A stretch of DNA of 64,000 nucleotides, from contig NZ_UEFQ01000016.1 in the NCBI RefSeq assembly GCF_900489465.1, positions 124,001 through 188,000 on the forward strand, read 5' to 3'. Shown here piece after piece: positions 30,747 through 40,419 of the stretch; position 1 is the first letter of the stretch, and every line of letters begins with the position of its first letter. The notes beneath the pieces are model-generated. The model searched no databases, was not told the origin of the DNA, and saw nothing but the letters and a program-made list of their open reading frames with translations. The stretch is from Aequorivita sp. CIP111184 (lineage in GTDB: Bacteria; Bacteroidota; Bacteroidia; Flavobacteriales; Flavobacteriaceae). The position numbers and the translations under genes were made by a program.

Positions 30747-31628
30747 AAGATATATAAAAACAACATCACACCCACCGAAACCCATATTGTTCCCAAGCTA
30801 GAAAACCCTATTCGACTTCAAGAATATGGGGTAGGTATTTTTCAGGCAGCTCTAACAAAATCAGCATTAAAAAAAGCACTGAAGAAAAAGTATATTACGG
30901 TTAATGGAGTTATTGCTACTTCGGCTACGTTTATAAATGGGGGAGAACGCATTTGTTTATCCATTTCAGAAGAAGTGATTCCGAAAAGAAAACTTGTCTT
31001 TCCGCTTGAAGTATTGTTGGAAGACGAGCACTTAGCTGCAATTCATAAACCTGCCGGTATTTTGGTTAGCGGTAATAGTTTTAAAACTATTGCAAATGCG
31101 CTAGATCAAAACTTAAAACGAAGCAAACTCCCCGATGCAACACCACCACAGCCTGTTCACCGATTGGACTATGCTACCACAGGAATTTTATTGGTTGGCA
31201 AAACAAGCAGTTGCATTCGTGCGTTAAATAAATTATTTGAAAATAGAGCTGTAACCAAAACCTATTTTGCAGTAACTATTGGGGAAATGGAAGAGCAGGG
31301 GGAAATCACTTCAGAGGTTGATTATAAAGAAGCACAATCAAATTATACGCTCTGTGAAACTGTACTTTCAGAAAGATTCGGGAAACTCAATTTGGTAAAA
31401 TTAGAACCCCAAACCGGAAGAAGACATCAGTTGCGGAAACACCTCGCTGCTATCGGAAACCCCATATTAGGTGATAAAGAATACGGCATTGAAAACTTAA
31501 TTTTAAACGGGAAAGGCTTGTATTTGCACGCTTATTCTTTAAAATTCACCCATCCTTTTACAAAGAAAGAAGTTTTTTTAAAAGATGAACTTCCACAACG
31601 GTTTAAAAAGATATTTTATAAAGCGTAG
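30744..31628 (+). CDS. RluA family pseudouridine synthase
   Basis: A 294-residue RNA pseudouridine synthase. An S4-like N-terminal part (about 35-80, LTKSALKKALKKKYITVNGV) precedes the catalytic domain. The catalytic Asp lies in PVHRLDYATTGILLVGKT (about residues 138-155), and LVKLEPQTGRRHQLRKHLA carries the C-terminal motif. No ATG is available in frame near the start; TTG at 30744 is used but sits inside a promoter-like box, so the true start is open. The target uridine (23S or tRNA) is unknown. It converges with the methyltransferase gene and overlaps it by 26 bp. Confidence 0.9.
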   Translation: MKIYKNNITPTETHIVPKLENPIRLQEYGVGIFQAALTKSALKKALKKKYITVNGVIATSATFINGGERICLSISEEVIPKRKLVFPLEVLLEDEHLAAIHKPAGILVSGNSFKTIANALDQNLKRSKLPDATPPQPVHRLDYATTGILLVGKTSSCIRALNKLFENRAVTKTYFAVTIGEMEEQGEITSEVDYKEAQSNYTLCETVLSERFGKLNLVKLEPQTGRRHQLRKHLAAIGNPILGDKEYGIENLILNGKGLYLHAYSLKFTHPFTKKEVFLKDELPQRFKKIFYKA

Positions 31629-32283
31629 TTACAATAACCCCTTTCCCATCCTCCAAAACAACAGCCGATAACTGTATTGCTTCTGCAACCTTAAAATTAA
31701 AAGGCGCCGCCAATAGGTTTACGCCACTTTGTACTTTTAGCCTATTTCCCTGTCCGGAAATAATGTCTTTATTGGGTGTAAAATCCCCTTCAGGTATATG
31801 TTCTGTTAGAATAATGTATTTGTAAGCAGCCAACTTGCTTAAGATGCTTTCTATTTCGGCATTAGATAAATGTTGGAGCACCTGCCGCAGTATGGCACAA
31901 TCCCCAGTTGGCAAATCGGCTACTGCGATGTCCAAACATTGGAATTCTAAATTGGATGCTTTAAAGGTTTCTTTATTTCGGGCTATCAGGCTTGGCACGA
32001 TATCTACTGCAACGTATTTCTCAGTATGGGTTACCAATGCTTTCCCTACATTAAAATCGCCACAACCTAAATCGCATACCGTTAGTGGATTTTTAAACGA
32101 AGTTATAAATGCGGTCACCGCAGCTATATACGGATTTACTATTTCTGGACGGTGCGACCCCTCGCCAGAATAGAAATCAGTTTGGTTACCACCCCAAAGT
32201 TTCTTTTCATAAACCTGCTCCATTGCAGCCTTAGTGGGCCAGGGGGTTTTTGTTTTTTTGGGTTGGTTTTCTTTTTTGTTCAC
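31603..32283 (-). CDS. Class I SAM-dependent methyltransferase
   Basis: A 226-residue soluble enzyme with a Rossmann-type SAM domain. Motif I is seen in TVCDLGCGDFNVGKALV (about residues 68-84), motif II in KYVAVDIVPSLI, and a post-I acidic segment in LEFQCLDIAVADLPTGDCAIL. The N-terminal WGGNQTDFYSGEGSHRPEIV is unusual and may bind the substrate. What it methylates is unknown. It overlaps the convergent RluA-type gene by 26 bp. Confidence 0.9.
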   Translation of the reverse strand: MNKKENQPKKTKTPWPTKAAMEQVYEKKLWGGNQTDFYSGEGSHRPEIVNPYIAAVTAFITSFKNPLTVCDLGCGDFNVGKALVTHTEKYVAVDIVPSLIARNKETFKASNLEFQCLDIAVADLPTGDCAILRQVLQHLSNAEIESILSKLAAYKYIILTEHIPEGDFTPNKDIISGQGNRLKVQSGVNLLAAPFNFKVAEAIQLSAVVLEDGKGVIVTTLYKISF

Positions 32284-32481
32284 GGTGAATTATTGGTATT
32301 CAAATGTACTATAAATAAAAAACCTCTGACCTCCAACCCACAATCATCAACTAACAATTCCTCATTCACAAACTCACTTATTCACCCATTCACAAAAGCC
32401 TAAAGCTTACAGCCTAAAGCCTACAGCCTACAGCTATTAAAAAAAACCCTATATTTGAAACTCTCCCCGATTAAATAAGCC

Positions 32482-32505
32482 CCCTTTACGGTTTTCCGTA
32501 AAGGG
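32482..32505 (+). repeat. Perfect T4-loop hairpin in leader copy A
   Basis: CCCTTTACGG, loop TTTT, CCGTAAAGGG: a 10-bp perfect stem directly upstream of the promoter of the 614-residue nuclease gene. Related T4-type-loop hairpins with different stem bases occur at 34492 and 35040. Confidence 0.85.
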
Positions 32506-32530
32506 TTGGTTTGAATTGTTGTTACATTTG
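32496..32530 (+). promoter_or_regulatory. Leader/promoter copy A
   Basis: The -7 box TACATTTG is at 32523-32530, inside the 12-mer TTGTTACATTTG. The -33 TTG seen in the other copies is replaced by AGG here, with a TTG four bases on. It drives the nuclease-like gene at 32631. Confidence 0.75.
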
Positions 32531-32630
32531 AAAATGTAAGAATGAAGTGTCCTTGTGTTGTTTATGCGTAAGCGGCTAAGGCGAATATGCGTCATGACAA
32601 AATACTAAAGAACCTGAACTAAATAAAGTT

Positions 32631-34475
32631 ATGAAATTAGAAAAAATACTAGATAAACTGGGTTCCTTAGAAAAGAACTCTTTTATAAAGATTATAGACC
32701 ATATCATTACAAAAAATCCAAAAAATTCAAAGGAAATTGAGAAAATATTAAGTTCATCTGACAAAGGGCTTAAATCGGTTGATAGCCAAAATGTGTCGAA
32801 TATATTTGGTTTGATTTCAACGGAGTTTACGGAGCACTTAAAGTGTGAATTCCAAGAAGCCAATTCACAATTGGACATTTTAATTGACATTATAATTCGA
32901 GATGGAAATTGTTTGATGAAGCAAGATTGGTTTTCAAGATTATACGAAACTGAAATAAAGAATCTGAAAGGAAAGATTAAAACGCTGACAGCAGAATTGG
33001 AAAGCGATAAATCGGAATTGAGTGAATCTCGAAAAAGAGATTATCGCATTTATAAAGCTTGTTTATCTACTGCATATACAAATGATATTGCAAATAATCG
33101 CGATGCAAAAATAACTTCTGATGAGTTATCAATTATCTTAACGCTATCAAAACAACTTGGACTTTCGCAAGAAGACGTTAAGTTGATTAATTATTCGATT
33201 TTGCCAATTAAGAAAGTAGATATTCAAGATGTAATTAATAGCTTAAAAAACCTTGGTGTTGTTTTCTTTTCGAAAAAGGAAAATACAATTTACGTAGCTG
33301 ATGAAATGGTTAGACTCTTAAGAAAAGTCAGAGAAAAAGAAGTAGCTGAAAAGTTTTACAGGCGGACATTGAAATTATTGAGAGAACCAATTATTAATCA
33401 AATTGCTAAAGAGCATAATATTGATAGAAAATTAAATAACTCCCAGAAGATAGAGCAGATAATCAAAGAAGGTATTTCTTTTACAGATTTACTTATAAAT
33501 GAAATATACAAGCCAGGAACAAATCTAACCGAGAAGAAAAAGACCTTAAATGAGCTTTGCGAAAAAGGATTAAATATAAAAAACCTAAAGGGCAGTACAT
33601 TAGAAGACAAAATTGCCAGTCTAATTGAGCATTTTGATAACGTTGAAAAAGACGAAAAAGTTGGGATATCAATCGATGGTTTTGACAAGATGCTATTGGA
33701 GCTAAATCAATCACTTCCTAAACTAAATAAAGAACTCAAAGATCAGTTCGAGTTACAAGATGAAAATGTTTTAATTGCGGATTATCTACTTGACTATAAT
33801 ATAAAACCAAGAGATATTTTAGATTTAATTACCAAACCAGATTTGTCTAAATTTATTAAAGACAACGGTATCAAACAGCGCGGGGATGATATTTTAAATA
33901 TTCTAGAACATTACAAAGATGTTGAGAATTTATATCTCGAAAATTATGCTAATGTTGGATATCGAAACTTAAACTTATTAAAGGAAAATGGCATTTCGGT
34001 TAAAGAAAGTGAATTAGGGCTAAAATTTGAAGAGCTTACTAAAATCATATTTAAAGGGCTAGGATTTAATGTAGATGATAAGTTTAAAAATCAACTAAAT
34101 ACTCAAAAGGATATGATGGATATTCTTTTGAATTTGGGTAATGATGAAATAATCATCGTAGAGTGTAAGACAGTAAAAGAAAAGGGCTATAATAAATTTA
34201 GTACTGTTTCAAGACAATTAAAATCATATCAGAATCTAGCCCTTAAAAATAATCTGAGAATTGTCAAGATTCTACTTGTCGGACCTGAATTCAGTGATGA
34301 TTTTGTCTATGATTGTGAAATGGACACTGAAATGAATTTATCGCTTATTACGGCTTCTTCACTTTCTAAAATATTTGAGACATTTAAGGATTCCAAATAT
34401 CAAGAATTTCCGCACGTATTATTTAGAGATATAGTTATAAACGAAGAACGGATTATTAAGGCATTGAGTAAATAA
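32631..34475 (+). CDS. Large protein with C-terminal PD-(D/E)XK nuclease domain
   Basis: A 614-residue soluble protein. The last 150 residues look like an Mrr-type restriction endonuclease fold: GLKFEELTKIIF (Glu about 466), KDMMDILLNLG (Asp about 497) and IIIVECKTVKEKGYN (E511-x-K513), then VSRQLKSYQNLALKNN. The first 450 residues are helical, with a coiled coil near 108-135, and match no family I know; they may sense a target or bind a partner. It is A+T-rich and starts the accessory block behind leader copy A. A defence role is inferred from the fold and neighbours. Confidence 0.85.
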   Translation: MKLEKILDKLGSLEKNSFIKIIDHIITKNPKNSKEIEKILSSSDKGLKSVDSQNVSNIFGLISTEFTEHLKCEFQEANSQLDILIDIIIRDGNCLMKQDWFSRLYETEIKNLKGKIKTLTAELESDKSELSESRKRDYRIYKACLSTAYTNDIANNRDAKITSDELSIILTLSKQLGLSQEDVKLINYSILPIKKVDIQDVINSLKNLGVVFFSKKENTIYVADEMVRLLRKVREKEVAEKFYRRTLKLLREPIINQIAKEHNIDRKLNNSQKIEQIIKEGISFTDLLINEIYKPGTNLTEKKKTLNELCEKGLNIKNLKGSTLEDKIASLIEHFDNVEKDEKVGISIDGFDKMLLELNQSLPKLNKELKDQFELQDENVLIADYLLDYNIKPRDILDLITKPDLSKFIKDNGIKQRGDDILNILEHYKDVENLYLENYANVGYRNLNLLKENGISVKESELGLKFEELTKIIFKGLGFNVDDKFKNQLNTQKDMMDILLNLGNDEIIIVECKTVKEKGYNKFSTVSRQLKSYQNLALKNNLRIVKILLVGPEFSDDFVYDCEMDTEMNLSLITASSLSKIFETFKDSKYQEFPHVLFRDIVINEERIIKALSK

Positions 34476-34491
34476 AGAGATTTAGCTCCCT

Positions 34492-34536
34492 TTACGGTTT
34501 CCCGTAATTGGTTGGTTTATATTGTTGTTACATTTG
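34492..34536 (+). promoter_or_regulatory. Leader/promoter copy B with T-rich-loop hairpin
   Basis: TTACGG-TTTC-CCGTAA (34492-34507) is followed by a -33 TTG at 34508-34510 and, after 18 bases, TACATTTG at 34529-34536. It lies 149 bp before the small secreted protein gene at 34685. Confidence 0.8.
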
Positions 34537-34684
34537 GAAATACATTAAAATAGGAACCCGTGTAGATAATGCGAACATCCAATATTGTTAGTACATCATA
34601 AACGAACAATTAAAACAATGATGGTTGAAATAAGCCGAAAAAAAACCCTAAACAGAAGTAGGCAAAAATTTGAATTATATAAAA

Positions 34685-34972
34685 ATGAAAAAAGTATTGA
34701 TTATTACAACTTTAATAGCTGGCTTTGCTGTATTATCAGCTTTCAATTCAACAAATAATACAGAATTAACAAAAATCGAAACGCTTTCAGTAGGTGATTT
34801 TTGCGACGGTTGGGAAGATGGATATTGTGAAGGTTGGAAAGACGTTAAAGGATCACTTTCTTTATGTCCACTCACTCCTTTGTGTCCATTACCTGAGCTA
34901 GGTCAAGATTCATACAGAGGTGGATATAATAGAGGTTTTAAAGCAGGTATGAGAGCTGCAAATAATGATTAA
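34685..34972 (+). CDS. Small secreted Cys/Gly-rich repeat protein
   Basis: A 95-residue protein. A signal peptide (MKKVLIITTLIAGFAVLSAF) precedes a mature part with aromatic-glycine repeats: CDGWEDGYCEGWKDV (about 40-54) and YRGGYNRGFKAGM (about 78-90). Between them lies CPLTPLCPLPELGQ. Four cysteines could form two disulfides. ATG at 34685 is chosen over an upstream one because the signal peptide starts there. I recognise no function; the regular Gx3G spacing suggests packing or self-association. It follows leader copy B by 149 bp. Confidence 0.75.
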   Translation: MKKVLIITTLIAGFAVLSAFNSTNNTELTKIETLSVGDFCDGWEDGYCEGWKDVKGSLSLCPLTPLCPLPELGQDSYRGGYNRGFKAGMRAANND

Positions 34973-35039
34973 ACCGATTAGAATAAATTTACTAATACAT
35001 TAAAAATATCTCAGCTTGGTTATTTAAAAAGTTTATTGC

Positions 35040-35083
35040 TAAGGTTTTCCTTACTTGGTGGGATTGTATTGTTGTTACATTTG
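35040..35083 (+). promoter_or_regulatory. Leader/promoter copy C with T4-loop hairpin
   Basis: TAAGG-TTTT-CCTTA (35040-35053) keeps pairing though its bases differ from copies A and B. A TTG at 35055-35057 is followed by 18 bases and TACATTTG at 35076-35083. It lies 90 bp before the gene at 35173. Confidence 0.8.
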
Positions 35084-35172
35084 AAAAATATATTGGAATA
35101 CTTGAGATTGTTAATTTTAAAAAAGAATTATTCATTTTGATTAATGGAAAATAGAAAAATCACAAAATAAAT

Positions 35173-35901
35173 ATGAAAAATAAATTTGACATTGGAGATA
35201 TTGTAACACTTAAATCACATCCATTAGCATATCAAGAAGACGGGGAAATAGATGCATATGTAAATCAAATCCCGCCATTTATGTGCGTTAAGGAAATTCA
35301 CATTGAAAAAAAGAAACAAATTTTTAGTAGTGAAATGCCAAGTGCTAAAATTGCAGATAATATTAAATACCTATGCGTGTATTTTAATCAGCATCGAATG
35401 ATATTTGAAGAAGGATATGTATATCAAGATACTATTGTATTATTGTCTGATGTTACTTTTCATAATGAACAAAAAGAGTTGAAAGAGGGTCATAAAAAAT
35501 TAGTTGAAGAAACTCTAGATTATAAAAACTCAAGTTATGAATTTGGTAAAAGAATATTCTTTAAAACCTACAAACTTGAAAAAAGGAAAAAATTTAGAAG
35601 TGCAGGGCAAGATTCAAATTCAACAACAAAAACTATATTGACGCATACATCTCCAGCATTTATTTTAAATGGCTTTAAACTAAATAATCAAAAATCAATT
35701 TATAATGCAAAGAACGGAGAATTACAGCGTAAATGTTCTGAAGAATTGTTTAAGGTTTTATGGTATAATGCATTCCAAGAAAAGTTTTCCGAAGAATATT
35801 TGCCAAAAGAATTTTTTACGGATGACAAGAGAATTTATAAACCTTTGAAGAAGATAGATTCTATTTCTAAGCGTAGGGGTATTGACCAAAAAAAAGATTA
35901 A
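35173..35901 (+). CDS. Unknown 242-residue protein next to the reverse transcriptase
   Basis: I do not recognise this gene. The N-terminus (KFDIGDIVTLKSHPLAY, about residues 4-20) looks like a small beta-barrel (SH3-like or hydrolase-rhodanese-like) domain. The middle is charged and helical (ELKEGHKKLVEETLDYKN) and the C-terminus is very basic (YKPLKKIDSISKRRGIDQKK). There is no membrane segment or signal peptide. It has its own leader copy C and lies 400 bp upstream of the reverse transcriptase on the same strand, so it may or may not be part of that system. Confidence 0.8.
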   Translation: MKNKFDIGDIVTLKSHPLAYQEDGEIDAYVNQIPPFMCVKEIHIEKKKQIFSSEMPSAKIADNIKYLCVYFNQHRMIFEEGYVYQDTIVLLSDVTFHNEQKELKEGHKKLVEETLDYKNSSYEFGKRIFFKTYKLEKRKKFRSAGQDSNSTTKTILTHTSPAFILNGFKLNNQKSIYNAKNGELQRKCSEELFKVLWYNAFQEKFSEEYLPKEFFTDDKRIYKPLKKIDSISKRRGIDQKKD

Positions 35902-35929
35902 GTTTGAAAGATAATTAGGAAGTCCTTTA

Positions 35930-36105
35930 CATTTAAAAATGACATCTACTGTATCATGGTGGGTTAATGCCCCAGTCAATCAGACCTTTAAAATTTAGAG
36001 GGATAAATCATACGTAGATTGATATTTTGGTAGCCCAGAAATAAGCACCTTCCTCGAGGAACGCACTTATTTCTTGGCACACGACTAAGGTCACCGTATA
36101 TATTA
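35930..36105 (+). ncRNA. Candidate structured non-coding RNA upstream of the RT
   Basis: This gene-free stretch contains several hairpins: TGGG/CCCA near 35960-35973, AATC/GATT around a TACGTA palindrome near 36007-36021, and a strong 46-base stem-loop at 36033-36078. A TACATTTA box near 35928-35935 could be its promoter. An RNA is inferred; the sequence shows only the structures and absence of coding. Confidence 0.45.
36033..36078. repeat. Strong 13-bp imperfect stem-loop
   Basis: GCCCAGAAATAAG (36033-36045) pairs with CTTATTTCTTGGC (36066-36078) over 13 positions with a single C/T mismatch. The enclosed part contains an inner stem TTCC-TCGA-GGAA (36050-36061). No T-run follows, so it is not a simple terminator. 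Confidence 0.85.
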
Positions 36106-36123
36106 GACGAATCAAAACGTCAT

Positions 36124-36135
36124 TTGTTACATTTG
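36124..36135 (+). promoter_or_regulatory. Promoter of the RT leader (TTGTTACATTTG)
   Basis: The same 12-mer as in copies A-C, with -7 box TACATTTG at 36128-36135. The expected -33 TTG is not present at the usual spacing. Transcription would begin near 36142, about 170 bases before the RT start codon. Confidence 0.7.
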
Positions 36136-36141
36136 AGGTAT

Positions 36142-36309
36142 TTCTTTGCTTCATAACTTCATTGAATATTTGGTTTATTATATATAAGGTCAATCTTATT
36201 AACGTAAAACTAAAAAGTGAACCGAGAATTCGGTTAGTGGTACAACTAAGTTTCTTTAGTGTTAAGCATTTTTAGGTAACTAGCTTTGAGGGCTTCCTTT
36301 TTTTTAAAC
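36142..36309 (+). ncRNA. Candidate RT-associated leader RNA with U8 tract
   Basis: About 168 non-coding bases between the promoter and the RT start. Short perfect hairpins follow each other: ATAAG/CTTAT (36184-36199), AACCGA-GAAT-TCGGTT (36220-36235), ACTAA/TTAGT (36245-36260) and GTTA/TAAC (36261-36280). A run of eight T lies at 36298-36305, five bases before ATG. Several defence RTs use a non-coding RNA encoded just upstream as template or partner, so such a role is proposed here. Confidence 0.5.
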
Positions 36310-37818
36310 ATGCAAAATTCTTCCTTAAATAAAAAAGATTGGTTTAAAGATAGGGGTTACCTCCATTTGACGAATAGAATTAATAAGGTTGATAAAACCA
36401 ATGTGCTACATTATGTTTCAAATTTTAAAAAAGTACAAAATCATAGATTTTCCCCATTTATCCTAAAACAGACCAATGACAGGCGCTACAAATTTTCAAA
36501 AGATTTAAATAGGCGTTCGCATAAAGCAGTAAATGATAAAGGTGAAATTATTACAAATTCCAAAATGAGACCGATTATGTATTCTACGCATATCGACTCT
36601 CATATTTATTCATATTACTCTCACAAAATTATTCAACCGAATTATGAAAATTATTTAAAAACTGATAAGGCTTTAAATGATTGTATTACTGCTTACAGAC
36701 AAATCGTAAATGACGATGGAATCCGTTTTAAATATAATGTTGATTTTGCGAAGGAAGTTTTTGAAGTAATTAAACAAAAGGAAAACTGCGCTGTATTAGC
36801 TTTTGACATTAAGAATTTCTTTCCTACCTTAAATCATTTACAGTTAAAGAAAATATGGAGTAAAATATTAGGGACTAAAAGTTTACCTAAGGATCATTAT
36901 GCCGTGTTTAAATCAATAACCAATTATAGCTATTTTTATTATGATGATTTGCGAGTAGGAGTAAATGGAAATTTAAATGAAAAAAAAATAGCCAATCTAA
37001 AAAATCAAGGGAAATTTCAATTATTTGAGAACTATCAAGATTTTAAAGATTCAGAAATTCAGGTTTATAAAAATCAAAAGAAGAAAGATGGAGTTATTTC
37101 GGGGATTCCACAAGGACTGCCAATAAGTGCTATGCTTGCCAATTTATATATGCTACCGTTTGATGAAAATATTGTTCAAAAATTGGTTAAATCGAAAGAC
37201 TGCTATTATCGAAGATATTCAGATGATTTAGTTGTCATTTGTGACGTTGAAGATATTGATGAGACTCAAAAGATTATAAAAGAAGAAATAGAAAAGATAA
37301 AATTGACCATTTCTACAGATAAAACTGAAAAATTTATATTTAAAAGAGTTGATAATAAACTTGAATGCTTTAAAATCAAAAATGATAAGTTAATTTCAAA
37401 TTCATACTTACAATATTTAGGATTTGATTTCTACGGTTATAAAACTTTAATAAAATCTGCTAATGTTTCAAGATTTTATCGGGAGATGAAGGAAAGCATA
37501 GCAATGAAAGCGAAGCGAGTGGATAAAATTCAAAGTAAATGTTTGACAAATGACGCTATTATTTTTAAGCGAAAAATTTACAGGTTATATAGTTTTAGAG
37601 GAATAAAATCTAGAGAATTACCTGGCTCTAAAGTTGTGTATTTAAAAGGCAAGCTTATAAAAAAAGACTTTACAAGAAAGTATAGAGGTAACTTTATTAA
37701 ATATGCGTACAGAGCATCTGATATTATGGAAGCGCCGGAAATTAGAAGGCAATTAAGAAGGCATATGATTATATTAAAAAGATATATGAATAAATTCAAT
37801 TTTGATAATATTCCATAA
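36310..37818 (+). CDS. Reverse transcriptase of defence (UG/DRT-like) type
   Basis: A 502-residue RT. Palm motifs are AFDIKNFFPTLNH (catalytic Asp 166), SGIPQGLPISAMLANLYML (about 264-282) and YSDDLVVIC (Y303-S-D305-D306). The N-terminus (WFKDRGYLHLTNRI) and the basic C-terminal 170 residues match no retron or group II intron partner known to me: no maturase or HNH domain, and no NAxxH/VTG-type retron features. ATG at 36310 is used; a frame start at 36286 lies in the T-rich leader. It is A+T-rich, stands alone, and follows a structured 400-bp non-coding region. Confidence 0.9.
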   Translation: MQNSSLNKKDWFKDRGYLHLTNRINKVDKTNVLHYVSNFKKVQNHRFSPFILKQTNDRRYKFSKDLNRRSHKAVNDKGEIITNSKMRPIMYSTHIDSHIYSYYSHKIIQPNYENYLKTDKALNDCITAYRQIVNDDGIRFKYNVDFAKEVFEVIKQKENCAVLAFDIKNFFPTLNHLQLKKIWSKILGTKSLPKDHYAVFKSITNYSYFYYDDLRVGVNGNLNEKKIANLKNQGKFQLFENYQDFKDSEIQVYKNQKKKDGVISGIPQGLPISAMLANLYMLPFDENIVQKLVKSKDCYYRRYSDDLVVICDVEDIDETQKIIKEEIEKIKLTISTDKTEKFIFKRVDNKLECFKIKNDKLISNSYLQYLGFDFYGYKTLIKSANVSRFYREMKESIAMKAKRVDKIQSKCLTNDAIIFKRKIYRLYSFRGIKSRELPGSKVVYLKGKLIKKDFTRKYRGNFIKYAYRASDIMEAPEIRRQLRRHMIILKRYMNKFNFDNIP

Positions 37819-37899
37819 AAAAATATCAATAACCATATTGTGCATTTGGAATGCGACCCAGCCTGATTTAATTTCATTAAGTCAAATCAACGGTCAATT

Positions 37900-37937
37900 T
37901 TGTCGTAATTGGTGGGGTTAATTATTTTTTATATTTA
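37900..37937 (+). promoter_or_regulatory. Leader/promoter copy E
   Basis: A diverged copy of the repeated promoter: CGTAATTGG near 37904 with TTG, then 18 bases and TATATTTA at 37930-37937 in place of TAnnTTTG. It lies about 50 bp before the DUF2130 gene and closely resembles the copy at 39668-39700. Confidence 0.65.
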
Positions 37938-37986
37938 CTAAATAAAAGACCTGACCAATCTTTCTGCTACATTTAATACAACAATC

Positions 37987-39285
37987 ATGAACGAAATAAA
38001 ATGTCCAAACTGCAAAAAAGCCTTCAAAGTAGATGAAGCTGGATTTGCAGATATACTTAAACAAGTTCGCGACCATCAATTTGAGGAAGAGTTAAACAAT
38101 AGGCTTACGCTTGCGGAGCGGGAAAAGGATAGTGCGGTGAAGCTTGCAGAAGCTAACATAAGAAATTCGCTGCAAGAACAACTTGCCAAAAAAGATAATG
38201 AGCTAACGCAATTAAAAGCAAACAGCGCTGCCGATCTTGCCAATAAACTGTCAAAAAAAGAAGCGGAACTTGCTGAGCTAAAATCTAGAAAGGAAACAGA
38301 AATCGCGGAAATGAATTCCAGAATCCAAAATGCGGAAATGGATAAAAGACTGTCGGTTTCAGAGGCAGTGAAGCTCATTGAAAAGGAACGCGATACGCTT
38401 GCCAATAATTTAAGGGTAAAAGAAACTGAAACACAGTTGCTCGAAAAATCCATAAAAGAGCAGTTTAATAATACCCTAATGGTGAAGGAGGAAACCATTA
38501 AAATGAAAGACGATGAAATTGCGCGTCTAAAAGACTATAAGCAAAAACTCTCCACAAAAATGGTTGGGGAAACCTTGGAGCAACATTGTGAATCTGAGTT
38601 TAATAAACTGCGGGCCACGGCTTTTCAGAATGCCTATTTTGAAAAAGACAACGACTCCAGCGGTGGGAGCAAAGGCGATTTTGTTTATAAGGAAACCGAT
38701 GAAGCGGGAAATGAAATCATTTCAATCATGTTTGAAATGAAAAACGAAAATGACGAAACCGCTACCAAAAAAAGAAATGAGGATTTCTTTGCCAAACTGG
38801 ATAAGGACCGGAAAGATAAAAAATGTGAATACGCTGTTTTGGTTTCGCTGTTGGAGTCGGAAAGTGAGTTTTACAATACGGGGATCGTTGATGTTTCGCA
38901 TAAGTTTCCAAAAATGTACGTGGTGCGGCCTCAGTTTTTTATTCCTATTATCACGCTACTAAGAAACGCAGCGATGAATTCCATGAAATACAAAGCGGAA
39001 CTGAATTTGATGCGGAACCAAAATATTGATATTACCAATTTTGAAGATAAGATTGACGCTTTTAGAAAAGGGTTTGCATACAATTATGATTTAGCGAGCC
39101 GAAAGTTTAAAACCGCGATTGACGAAATAGATAAAACCATAAGTCATCTGCAAAAAACAAAAGATGCTTTGTTATCCTCGGAAAACAATTTGCGACTGGC
39201 CAATAATAAAGCAGATGATTTAACCATTCAGAAATTAACTTATGGCAATCCTACTATGAAGGCTAAGTTTGATGGACTAGATTAG
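37987..39285 (+). CDS. DUF2130 protein
   Basis: A 432-residue DUF2130 family protein. It starts with a zinc-ribbon-like [10 protein letters not shown] (Cys 5 and 8), then a long coiled coil (about 25-200, Glu/Lys/Leu rich). A globular domain follows (about 200-360) with [20 protein letters not shown] and EMKNENDE, which has the spacing of a PD-(D/E)XK nuclease core (Asp ... Glu-x-Lys). A helical tail ends the protein. Length is usual. The biological role is not established. It stands alone behind leader copy E, and its base composition looks less A+T-rich than the RT gene. Confidence 0.92.
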
Positions 39286-39780: not shown

Positions 39781-40143
39781 ATGAAAGATAATACCAACTC
39801 AACCTGGATGTGGCCTGACGAATTAGATGCTTTAATTGCTTCCCCACAGCATCATAAAATATTATTAGAGAATGAAACAGTACGGGTAATTGACACGCTT
39901 ATTCCTCCAAATGAAACAACAGAGCTTCATACCCATAAATGGCCAGCAACACTTTATATATTGAGCTGGTCAGATTTCGTGCGCTATGATGATAAAAATA
40001 ATATTGAAGTTGATTCAAGAAATTTTGACAAAGCTCCTTTACCATCTACTTCCGTTTGGACAGAACCACTAACACCCCATAGATTAAAAAATGTAGGTGA
40101 AAATGATATACATATTATAAGTGTTGAAATTAAAAACAAATAA
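39781..40143 (+). CDS. Cupin-like small protein
   Basis: A 120-residue protein with a cupin beta-barrel pattern: VIDTLIPPNETTELHTHKWP (metal-type His pair, about 36-55) in motif 1, and PHRLKNVGENDIHIISVEIK as motif 2. ATG at 39781 fits; a longer frame begins in the promoter leader. The function is unknown; single-domain cupins range from enzymes to sensors. It is the last gene behind a copy of the shared leader and is followed by a heptad repeat. Confidence 0.8.
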   Translation: MKDNTNSTWMWPDELDALIASPQHHKILLENETVRVIDTLIPPNETTELHTHKWPATLYILSWSDFVRYDDKNNIEVDSRNFDKAPLPSTSVWTEPLTPHRLKNVGENDIHIISVEIKNK

Positions 40144-40165
40144 ACCCTCCAGCTGGTATAAACTT

Positions 40166-40249
40166 CGTGAGTCGTGATTCGTGAGTCGTGAGTTGTGAGT
40201 CGTGAGTCGTGAGTTGTGAGTCGTGAGTCGTGAATCGTGAATCGTGAAT
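40166..40249. repeat. 7-bp tandem repeat, twelve units
   Basis: Twelve heptads of CGTGAGT with single-base variants (TGTGAGT, CGTGAAT, CGTGATT). It is followed by a second small duplication of GCACTTCGTATTT near 40271-40298. No spacers, so not CRISPR. Confidence 0.92.
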
Positions 40250-40419
40250 CGAATTTCGTCGCTCGTCGCTCGCACTTCGTATTTTGCACTTCGTATTTCC
40301 TCCTTCATCCCTTGTAAGTCTTTATGTATTATCGTGGTCTAAAAGCTTGTATGTAAACAAACTATAGCGTAGTTTTAACTCAACTAAAAATCAACGCACC
40401 AACCAAAACCATTTCAATT

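Follow-up and report, generated by a model that had tools for sequence, protein, structure and literature searches.

A 64,000-nucleotide stretch of DNA from Aequorivita sp. CIP111184 (hereafter the window) contains a reverse transcriptase (RT) gene preceded by several hundred non-coding bases. Which kind of RT does this locus encode, and what would it copy? An earlier note, made from the sequence of positions 35,902 to 37,818, had proposed a solitary defense-type RT of a new or little-described group, headed by a structured leader whose terminal run of eight T could serve as a template for poly(dA).

The reverse transcriptase and its neighbors

The RT open reading frame (36310–37818, plus strand; 502 aa) is intact and has the features that the earlier note ascribed to it: Asp166 lies within FDIKNFF, YSDD occupies residues 303–306, and the C-terminus is basic, with 27 K/R versus 8 D/E in the last 100 residues. 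The PADLOC Drt2 model matches it with 441.6 bits (E 1.1e-132), as compared to 82.3 bits for the best other family, and its closest solved structure in the PDB is a DRT2 (E 7e-52; next molecule, E 1.5e-4). With the NCBIfam Drt2 model the score is 366.3 bits, under the curated cut-off of 390. The proposal that the RT is neither a group II nor a retron enzyme was borne out by the NCBIfam group II (64.6 bits, cut-off 300) and retron St85 (59.1 bits, cut-off 235) models, and no Rfam family matches the window at its gathering score. Among the best 25 of 38 PADLOC hits there is no model of DRT9 or of UG28, which we take to be DRT9.

A midpoint-rooted maximum-likelihood tree of 66 RTs, with long branches flagged by the tree program, places the window RT inside a 16-member clade (support 100/99). 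This clade is nested in a 52-row group together with three annotated Drt2 proteins (95/95), 14 weaker RT hits standing apart; L028, with a frame below 250 aa, and L084, which was not entered, are outside the tree. A TAG occurs within the RT match of L028, whose frame is short, and is also flagged in L022 and L038, where the ORFs still reach 516 and 548 aa. Judged by family models, structural match and tree, the RT is a divergent DRT2 (UG2) reverse transcriptase. In view of the PADLOC and PDB matches the idea of a new or little-described RT group was abandoned; that of a defense-type RT with a conserved, structured RNA element just upstream was retained.

Throughout, the study clade comprises the window and every locus that reaches 49% identity, except for the copies L005 and L006: 16 systems in all. 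A scan of GTDB contigs with the RT returned four loci. An RT match of any kind was found in 39 of 397 genomes of the family, 20 of 395 of the order, 31 of 395 of the class and 58 of 395 of the phylum, counts that come from overlapping samples and include many low-scoring matches to other RTs. Two same-genus genomes listed in the family search have no RT match. No relative of the RT was found on viral contigs, and plasmids and phages yielded only relatives below 60% identity.

The system lies between a methyltransferase-like gene (31603–32283; named by eye) and a DUF2130 gene (37987–39285). Two same-genus genomes (L109 and L110) carry other cargo between these flanking genes; the system therefore sits in a variable site (32283–37987), which could be a defense hotspot. 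By eye, the L110 cargo includes an 821-aa ATPase-like ORF, and L109 has ORFs of 294, 311 and 353 aa. In the window, again by eye, the C-terminal part of a 614-aa ORF (32631–34475) looks like a restriction-type nuclease; neither Pfam nor NCBIfam nor PADLOC matches this ORF at E 0.001. Minus-strand ORFs made of TTHDSRL-like units at 39984–40308 correspond to a short intergenic tandem DNA repeat.

The RT is not solitary, as had been supposed, because the gene directly upstream (35173–35901, plus strand; 242 aa) matches the PADLOC model RTasYodC (E 5.2e-88). It also matches RTasWYL-YodC (E 1.7e-32), and PADLOC files the model under DRT without assigning a function. A homolog adjoins the RT in all 16 clade members, although the tblastn match in L002 is in two pieces. 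The gene has the same orientation as the RT in six systems, the nearest members, and is divergent in ten. Since the neighbor is retained in both orientations, it is likely part of the system. No Pfam family reaches its cut-off with the YodC-like protein; DUF2158 matches six of the 15 members, with E 0.007 at best, and the PDB gave a single weak match (E 0.022). Searches of the open-access literature found no role reported for YodC. We consider the protein to be a constant partner, probably a regulatory or complex component.

The putative leader RNA and its presumed template

The non-coding leader fills the 408 nt between the YodC-like gene and the RT (35902–36309), and such a leader lies directly upstream of the RT in all 16 clade members. 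Its length and the position of the T8 tract (36298–36305, plus strand) agree with the earlier description, except that T8 does not immediately precede the start codon: four bases intervene. The leader folds more stably than its shuffles (z −4.17; 0/100 as low), in keeping with the hairpins described in the note. Covariation, which the note had proposed to look for in homologous leaders, is present: RNAalifold on the 16 leaders gives 49 pairs, 31 of which show two-sided compensatory change. Paired cells make up 93.8% of the leader alignment, as compared to 80.0% after shuffling and at most 48.4% in slid controls, and 121 cells changed on both sides, versus 43.5 in shuffles (0/500 as high); the alignment in this covariation test is also the one that yielded the structure. 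Hence, by covariation and folding, the leader carries a conserved RNA structure.

A structured non-coding RNA is proposed to extend from 35912 to 36305 (plus strand), these ends being placed by covariation and conserved flanks. A closing helix pairs its 5′ arm (35918–35927) with 36288–36297; in alignment A5 (columns 4–13/444–453), 95.6% of its cells are paired and 4 of 10 pairs show two-sided change. A pre-template helix pairs 35975–35981 with 36017–36023 (columns 85–91/129–135); all of its cells (100%) are paired, and 5 of 7 pairs changed on both sides. A hairpin within the template (36033–36078; arms 36033–36045 and 36066–36078) has changed in a compensatory manner among the six nearest leaders. 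T8, just past the closing helix, is probably near the RNA 3′ end. A terminator scanner finds no classic terminator there, the stem being long-range, and the word terminator is a guess only.

Leaders are conserved over about 115 nt on the 5′ side and about 100 nt on the 3′ side, while the middle is variable. Between the window and its nearest relative, L001, blastn aligned 35177–36023 and 36215–37840 and nothing between; this gap is the presumed template. A model of the conserved 3′ domain, R1 (36204–36305, plus strand), gives one hit in its own genome and finds 11 of 339 family genomes, every hit being directly upstream of an already found RT. All 11 hits are model-building sequences, and further hits may have been lost because the filters of this search were stricter; the genomes of L008 and L017 are absent from the hits and may lie outside the sample. 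R1 finds none of three gammaproteobacterial/desulfovibrio DRT2 loci (L077, L078 and L081); the likeness to the K. pneumoniae-type ncRNA is one of layout.

The borders of the template were set by a small search for GTA-like words and then checked against conserved offsets. In the window, GTA is found at 36030–36032 and again at 36204–36206 (plus strand), 15 nt before the conserved GAACCGAGAATTCGGTT element. These offsets are constant in 16/16 leaders (5′ border, +13 from GATT[GA][AG]; 3′ border, 15 nt ahead of the element). The two triplets match in 13 of the 16 leaders, as GTA/GTA in 12 and GTT/GTT in L010; the mismatches are on the 5′ side, with GCA in L009, GAA in L016 and GTT in L035, each versus a 3′ GTA. 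Out of 3,960 offset pairs, the chosen borders have the most exact triplets (13/16, 45/48 bases equal; next, 11/16 and 41/48). ACGTA in the 5′ flank was tried as a border word and rejected: the window unit would then be 190 nt long, a length not divisible by three.

The resulting units measure 171, 174, 183, 186 or 189 nt and are divisible by three in all 16 systems. Read circularly, every unit has a stop-free frame on the antisense strand, whereas the sense strand is open in two (L010 and L017). Among dinucleotide-shuffled versions of a unit, 0.4 to 4.9% have an open antisense frame; the 16 units are not independent trials because the systems are related. When templates were sorted by hand on similarity, 9/9 groups were open antisense. 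It is the matching words that fix the borders. Divisibility by three and openness alone would leave many choices: out of 2,668 offset pairs, 889 give lengths divisible by three in every one of the 16 systems, and 274 of these 889 are also open in all 16. Shifting the unit lowers antisense openness to 3/16 at −60, 4/16 at +60 and 11/16 at −30, but only to 15/16 at +30, because the frame continues into the 3′ domain. Hydrophobicity of the antisense frame exceeds the mean of shuffled stop-free frames in 16/16 units (z 0.6 to 3.8, mean 1.9). Its codons are only weakly constrained, with dN/dS of about 0.4 to 1.1 for those pairs that can be aligned. As the likely template we regard the 174 nt in the middle of the leader (36030–36203), read on the minus strand, where repetition head to tail would give a single stop-free frame of 58 codons per unit. 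On sequence grounds, matching words, threefold length and antisense frame together are the signature of a DRT2 “neo” gene.

A presumed −7 box of the ncRNA promoter, TAAGTTTG, is found at 35899–35906 (plus strand), overlapping the stop codon of the upstream gene. We take TAAGTTTG to be the Bacteroidota −7 form. A TAnnTTTG/A box, picked by eye, is present in 15/16 leaders, L001 differing. A sigma-70 scan gave nothing above chance. A 9/12 sigma-70-like match on the minus strand at 36165–36193, inside the template and not over the joint, is at chance level (2 versus a shuffle mean of 1.6).

The joint between successive repeats was scored with a weight matrix built from the 16 by-eye ncRNA boxes, with a bonus for TTG 17–23 nt upstream and weights set by the authors. 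The 21-nt span at the joint reaches a mean score of 6.51, versus 2.43 (sd 0.86) for random spans (0/5,000), and ranks fourth among common shifts from −85 to +84, behind the overlapping spans at +3 to +5. The top promoter-like match lies at the joint in 8 of the 16 units and elsewhere in the other 8; three of these, L002, L007 and L008, have it within the unit at −22. The joint box of the window itself is weak (3.7, no TTG upstream), and TATATTTAC stands at the joint in L010 and L016. In L010 (1195–1400), where the sense strand is also stop-free, the clearest joint box is followed by GGAGG and ATG.

Possible template exchange and other Bacteroidota groups

Templates may not always follow the RTs. 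Between the window and L001, the nearest RT (81% aa identity), flanks are 88 and 85% identical and templates 59%, versus a shuffled baseline of 53%; between the window and L009, RT identity is 70% and template identity 68% (baseline 55%). Likewise, L015 has templates 62 and 59% identical to those of its nearest RTs, L013 and L014 (83%; baseline 56%), while its template matches that of L011 at 85%, with RTs at 78%. These two mosaic cases, from sequence comparison, suggest that templates were exchanged between lineages, although uneven rates could mimic exchange in the case of the window, L001 and L009.

Four further Bacteroidota DRT2 groups (A–D) were picked by eye from their antisense peptides, and their leaders were aligned and scanned for column pairs. 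Since the peptides looked alike at selection, openness in these groups is not independent evidence; border words and lengths are. Group A (three leaders) has ATAC on both sides of units of 153–156 nt. Group B (five leaders) has ATTC in four and TTTC on both sides in L054 (129–141 nt), and group C (four leaders) has TATT in three and AATT on both sides in L022 (153–162 nt). In all three groups, every unit is divisible by three and open antisense. The border word is the only covarying four-base repeat common to all members in groups B and C, out of 30,252 and 26,157 column pairs, respectively. Group A shares 12 four-base repeats; only the border word among them delimits units that are open and divisible by three, which is weak evidence when taken alone.

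The column-pair scan gave no convincing unit in group D (L036 and L038; L037 was dropped before the count). L050, which R1 hits weakly (E 0.13) at the expected position, yielded no unit either. Group D and L050 are the nearest outside the 16-member clade. A simple ACA rule applied to the three control loci found a neo-like unit in one (L078; not L077 or L081). L020 and L024, beside groups A and B in the tree, were kept out of those groups, and the border-word scan covered neither L029–L031, L039, L041, L042, L052, L053, L055–L058, L079, L080 nor L082–L084, among others.

We hold a joint reading of these observations tentatively, with rather more doubt than belief. Neo genes would be a general, exchangeable payload of Bacteroidota DRT2, whose RNA scaffold, RT and YodC stay fixed while border word and hidden gene change together; templates would be swapped like polymorphic-toxin cassettes, and YodC would be the dedicated control or immunity factor of this branch.

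Proposed mechanism, alternatives and known systems

In our view the window system quite probably works like DRT2 with a neo gene, on the sequence features described above; the branch has a second partner gene and apparently another copying signal. The YodC-like gene, an ncRNA of about 390 nt and the RT would form a divergent Flavobacteriaceae DRT2 anti-phage system. The RT would hold the ncRNA by its conserved 5′ and 3′ domains and copy the 174-nt middle. The cDNA end, complementary to the GTA at 36030, would re-pair with the second GTA at 36204, and copying would restart, giving head-to-tail cDNA. Once double-stranded, the repeats would contain an endless frame antisense to the ncRNA, each repeat adding 58 aa, and the joint would be spanned by a promoter-like element in many relatives. 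The hydrophobic Neo product would then arrest the infected cell. We infer the RNA molecule, cDNA synthesis, jumping, transcription, Neo toxicity, phage defense and the role of YodC alike from the sequences.

The reading of U8 as template takes DRT9 as its model, which copies a poly-uridine tract of its ncRNA according to PMC12632851, and there is indeed a T8 at the end of the leader. However, T8 is not part of the variable template but directly adjoins, on the downstream side, the 3′ arm of the closing helix, which covaries, and the T run is often broken in relatives, as in CCTTATTTTT (L008), CCTTTTATTTT (L009) and TCTCTTACTTTT (L010). In addition, the variable, frame-preserving part lies elsewhere in the leader, and the RT scores as Drt2; a DRT9-like synthesis of poly(dA) is hardly plausible, and this part of the earlier note was given up. 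T8 just before the start codon, together with the structure and a promoter-like box of its own, could also fit a cis-regulatory 5′ UTR of the RT gene, that is, an attenuator or riboswitch rather than a template. Conserved ends around an exchangeable middle, matching border words and threefold lengths are unlike a riboswitch, and Rfam has no match in the window at gathering score; we judge this very unlikely. The chance that the locus is a degenerate or inactive remnant appears close to negligible: its distribution in the family and genus is patchy, but RT motifs, frame and RNA helices are kept.

A last alternative accepts the repeats and denies them a coding role. DRT10 makes tandem-repeat DNA (PMC12632851), and the weak codon-level constraint would suit an antisense frame that is a by-product of composition. 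Against this stand the openness of the antisense strand in 16/16 units at 0.004–0.05 each, as compared to 2/16 for the sense strand, unit lengths that vary only by threes, and the drop in openness at −60 and +60, though not at +30. The promoter-like signal at the joint and the recurrence of threefold lengths and border words in three other groups point the same way, and we consider non-coding repeats unlikely.

The reading with a neo gene bears on a point left open by the discoverers of DRT2. Searches of the open-access literature found no report of neo in Bacteroidota DRT2. Without the ACA rule, four divergent Bacteroidota groups share the hidden-gene logic, and its computable signature, in which border words match, lengths are divisible by three and the antisense strand is open, could reveal neo in other DRT2 branches. 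A natural series of border words is thereby available for testing the priming model, and a YodC-like gene is named as a partner without a known role.

The comparison with known systems draws on PMC12039810, PMC11100668, PMC12596737 and PMC12632851. DRT9 is likewise a class 2 DRT with an ncRNA; the window clade differs in having no conserved poly-U template. DRT10 (UG17), for which repeat-DNA synthesis is reported and whose immune role is unclear according to PMC12632851, is the best non-Drt2 PADLOC family (82 bits, far below Drt2). The window clade differs from it by a conserved open frame, and none of the four window proteins scanned with PADLOC is of the SLATT type.

The mechanism of the K. 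pneumoniae DRT2 with its neo gene is published (PMC12039810). The window clade shares with it the RT family and an arrangement in which an ncRNA, putative in the window clade, lies directly upstream and has a variable template flanked by conserved 5′ and 3′ ends. Also common to both are matching border words, a repeat length divisible by three, an endless frame antisense to the ncRNA and a hydrophobic predicted product, and in many members of the clade a promoter-like element may span the joint. On the other hand, the border word is GTA in the window clade and ACA in K. pneumoniae DRT2; ACA is taken as a sub-type mark because it is described for relatives of that system (PMC12039810 and PMC11100668). 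The unit is 171–189 nt long as compared to mostly 117 (111–129) nt, the putative ncRNA of the window, whose long 5′ domain pairs with its 3′ end, about 390 nt as compared to 280 nt, and the RT 502 aa as compared to 425 aa. The promoter-like box of the window clade has a Bacteroidota form, unlike that of K. pneumoniae DRT2. Finally, DRT2 of the K. pneumoniae type consists of RT and ncRNA alone, whereas the window clade adds a YodC-like neighbor in 16/16 members. The window system belongs to the DRT2 family by its RT and is a distinct sub-type by its border word, its size and its partner gene.
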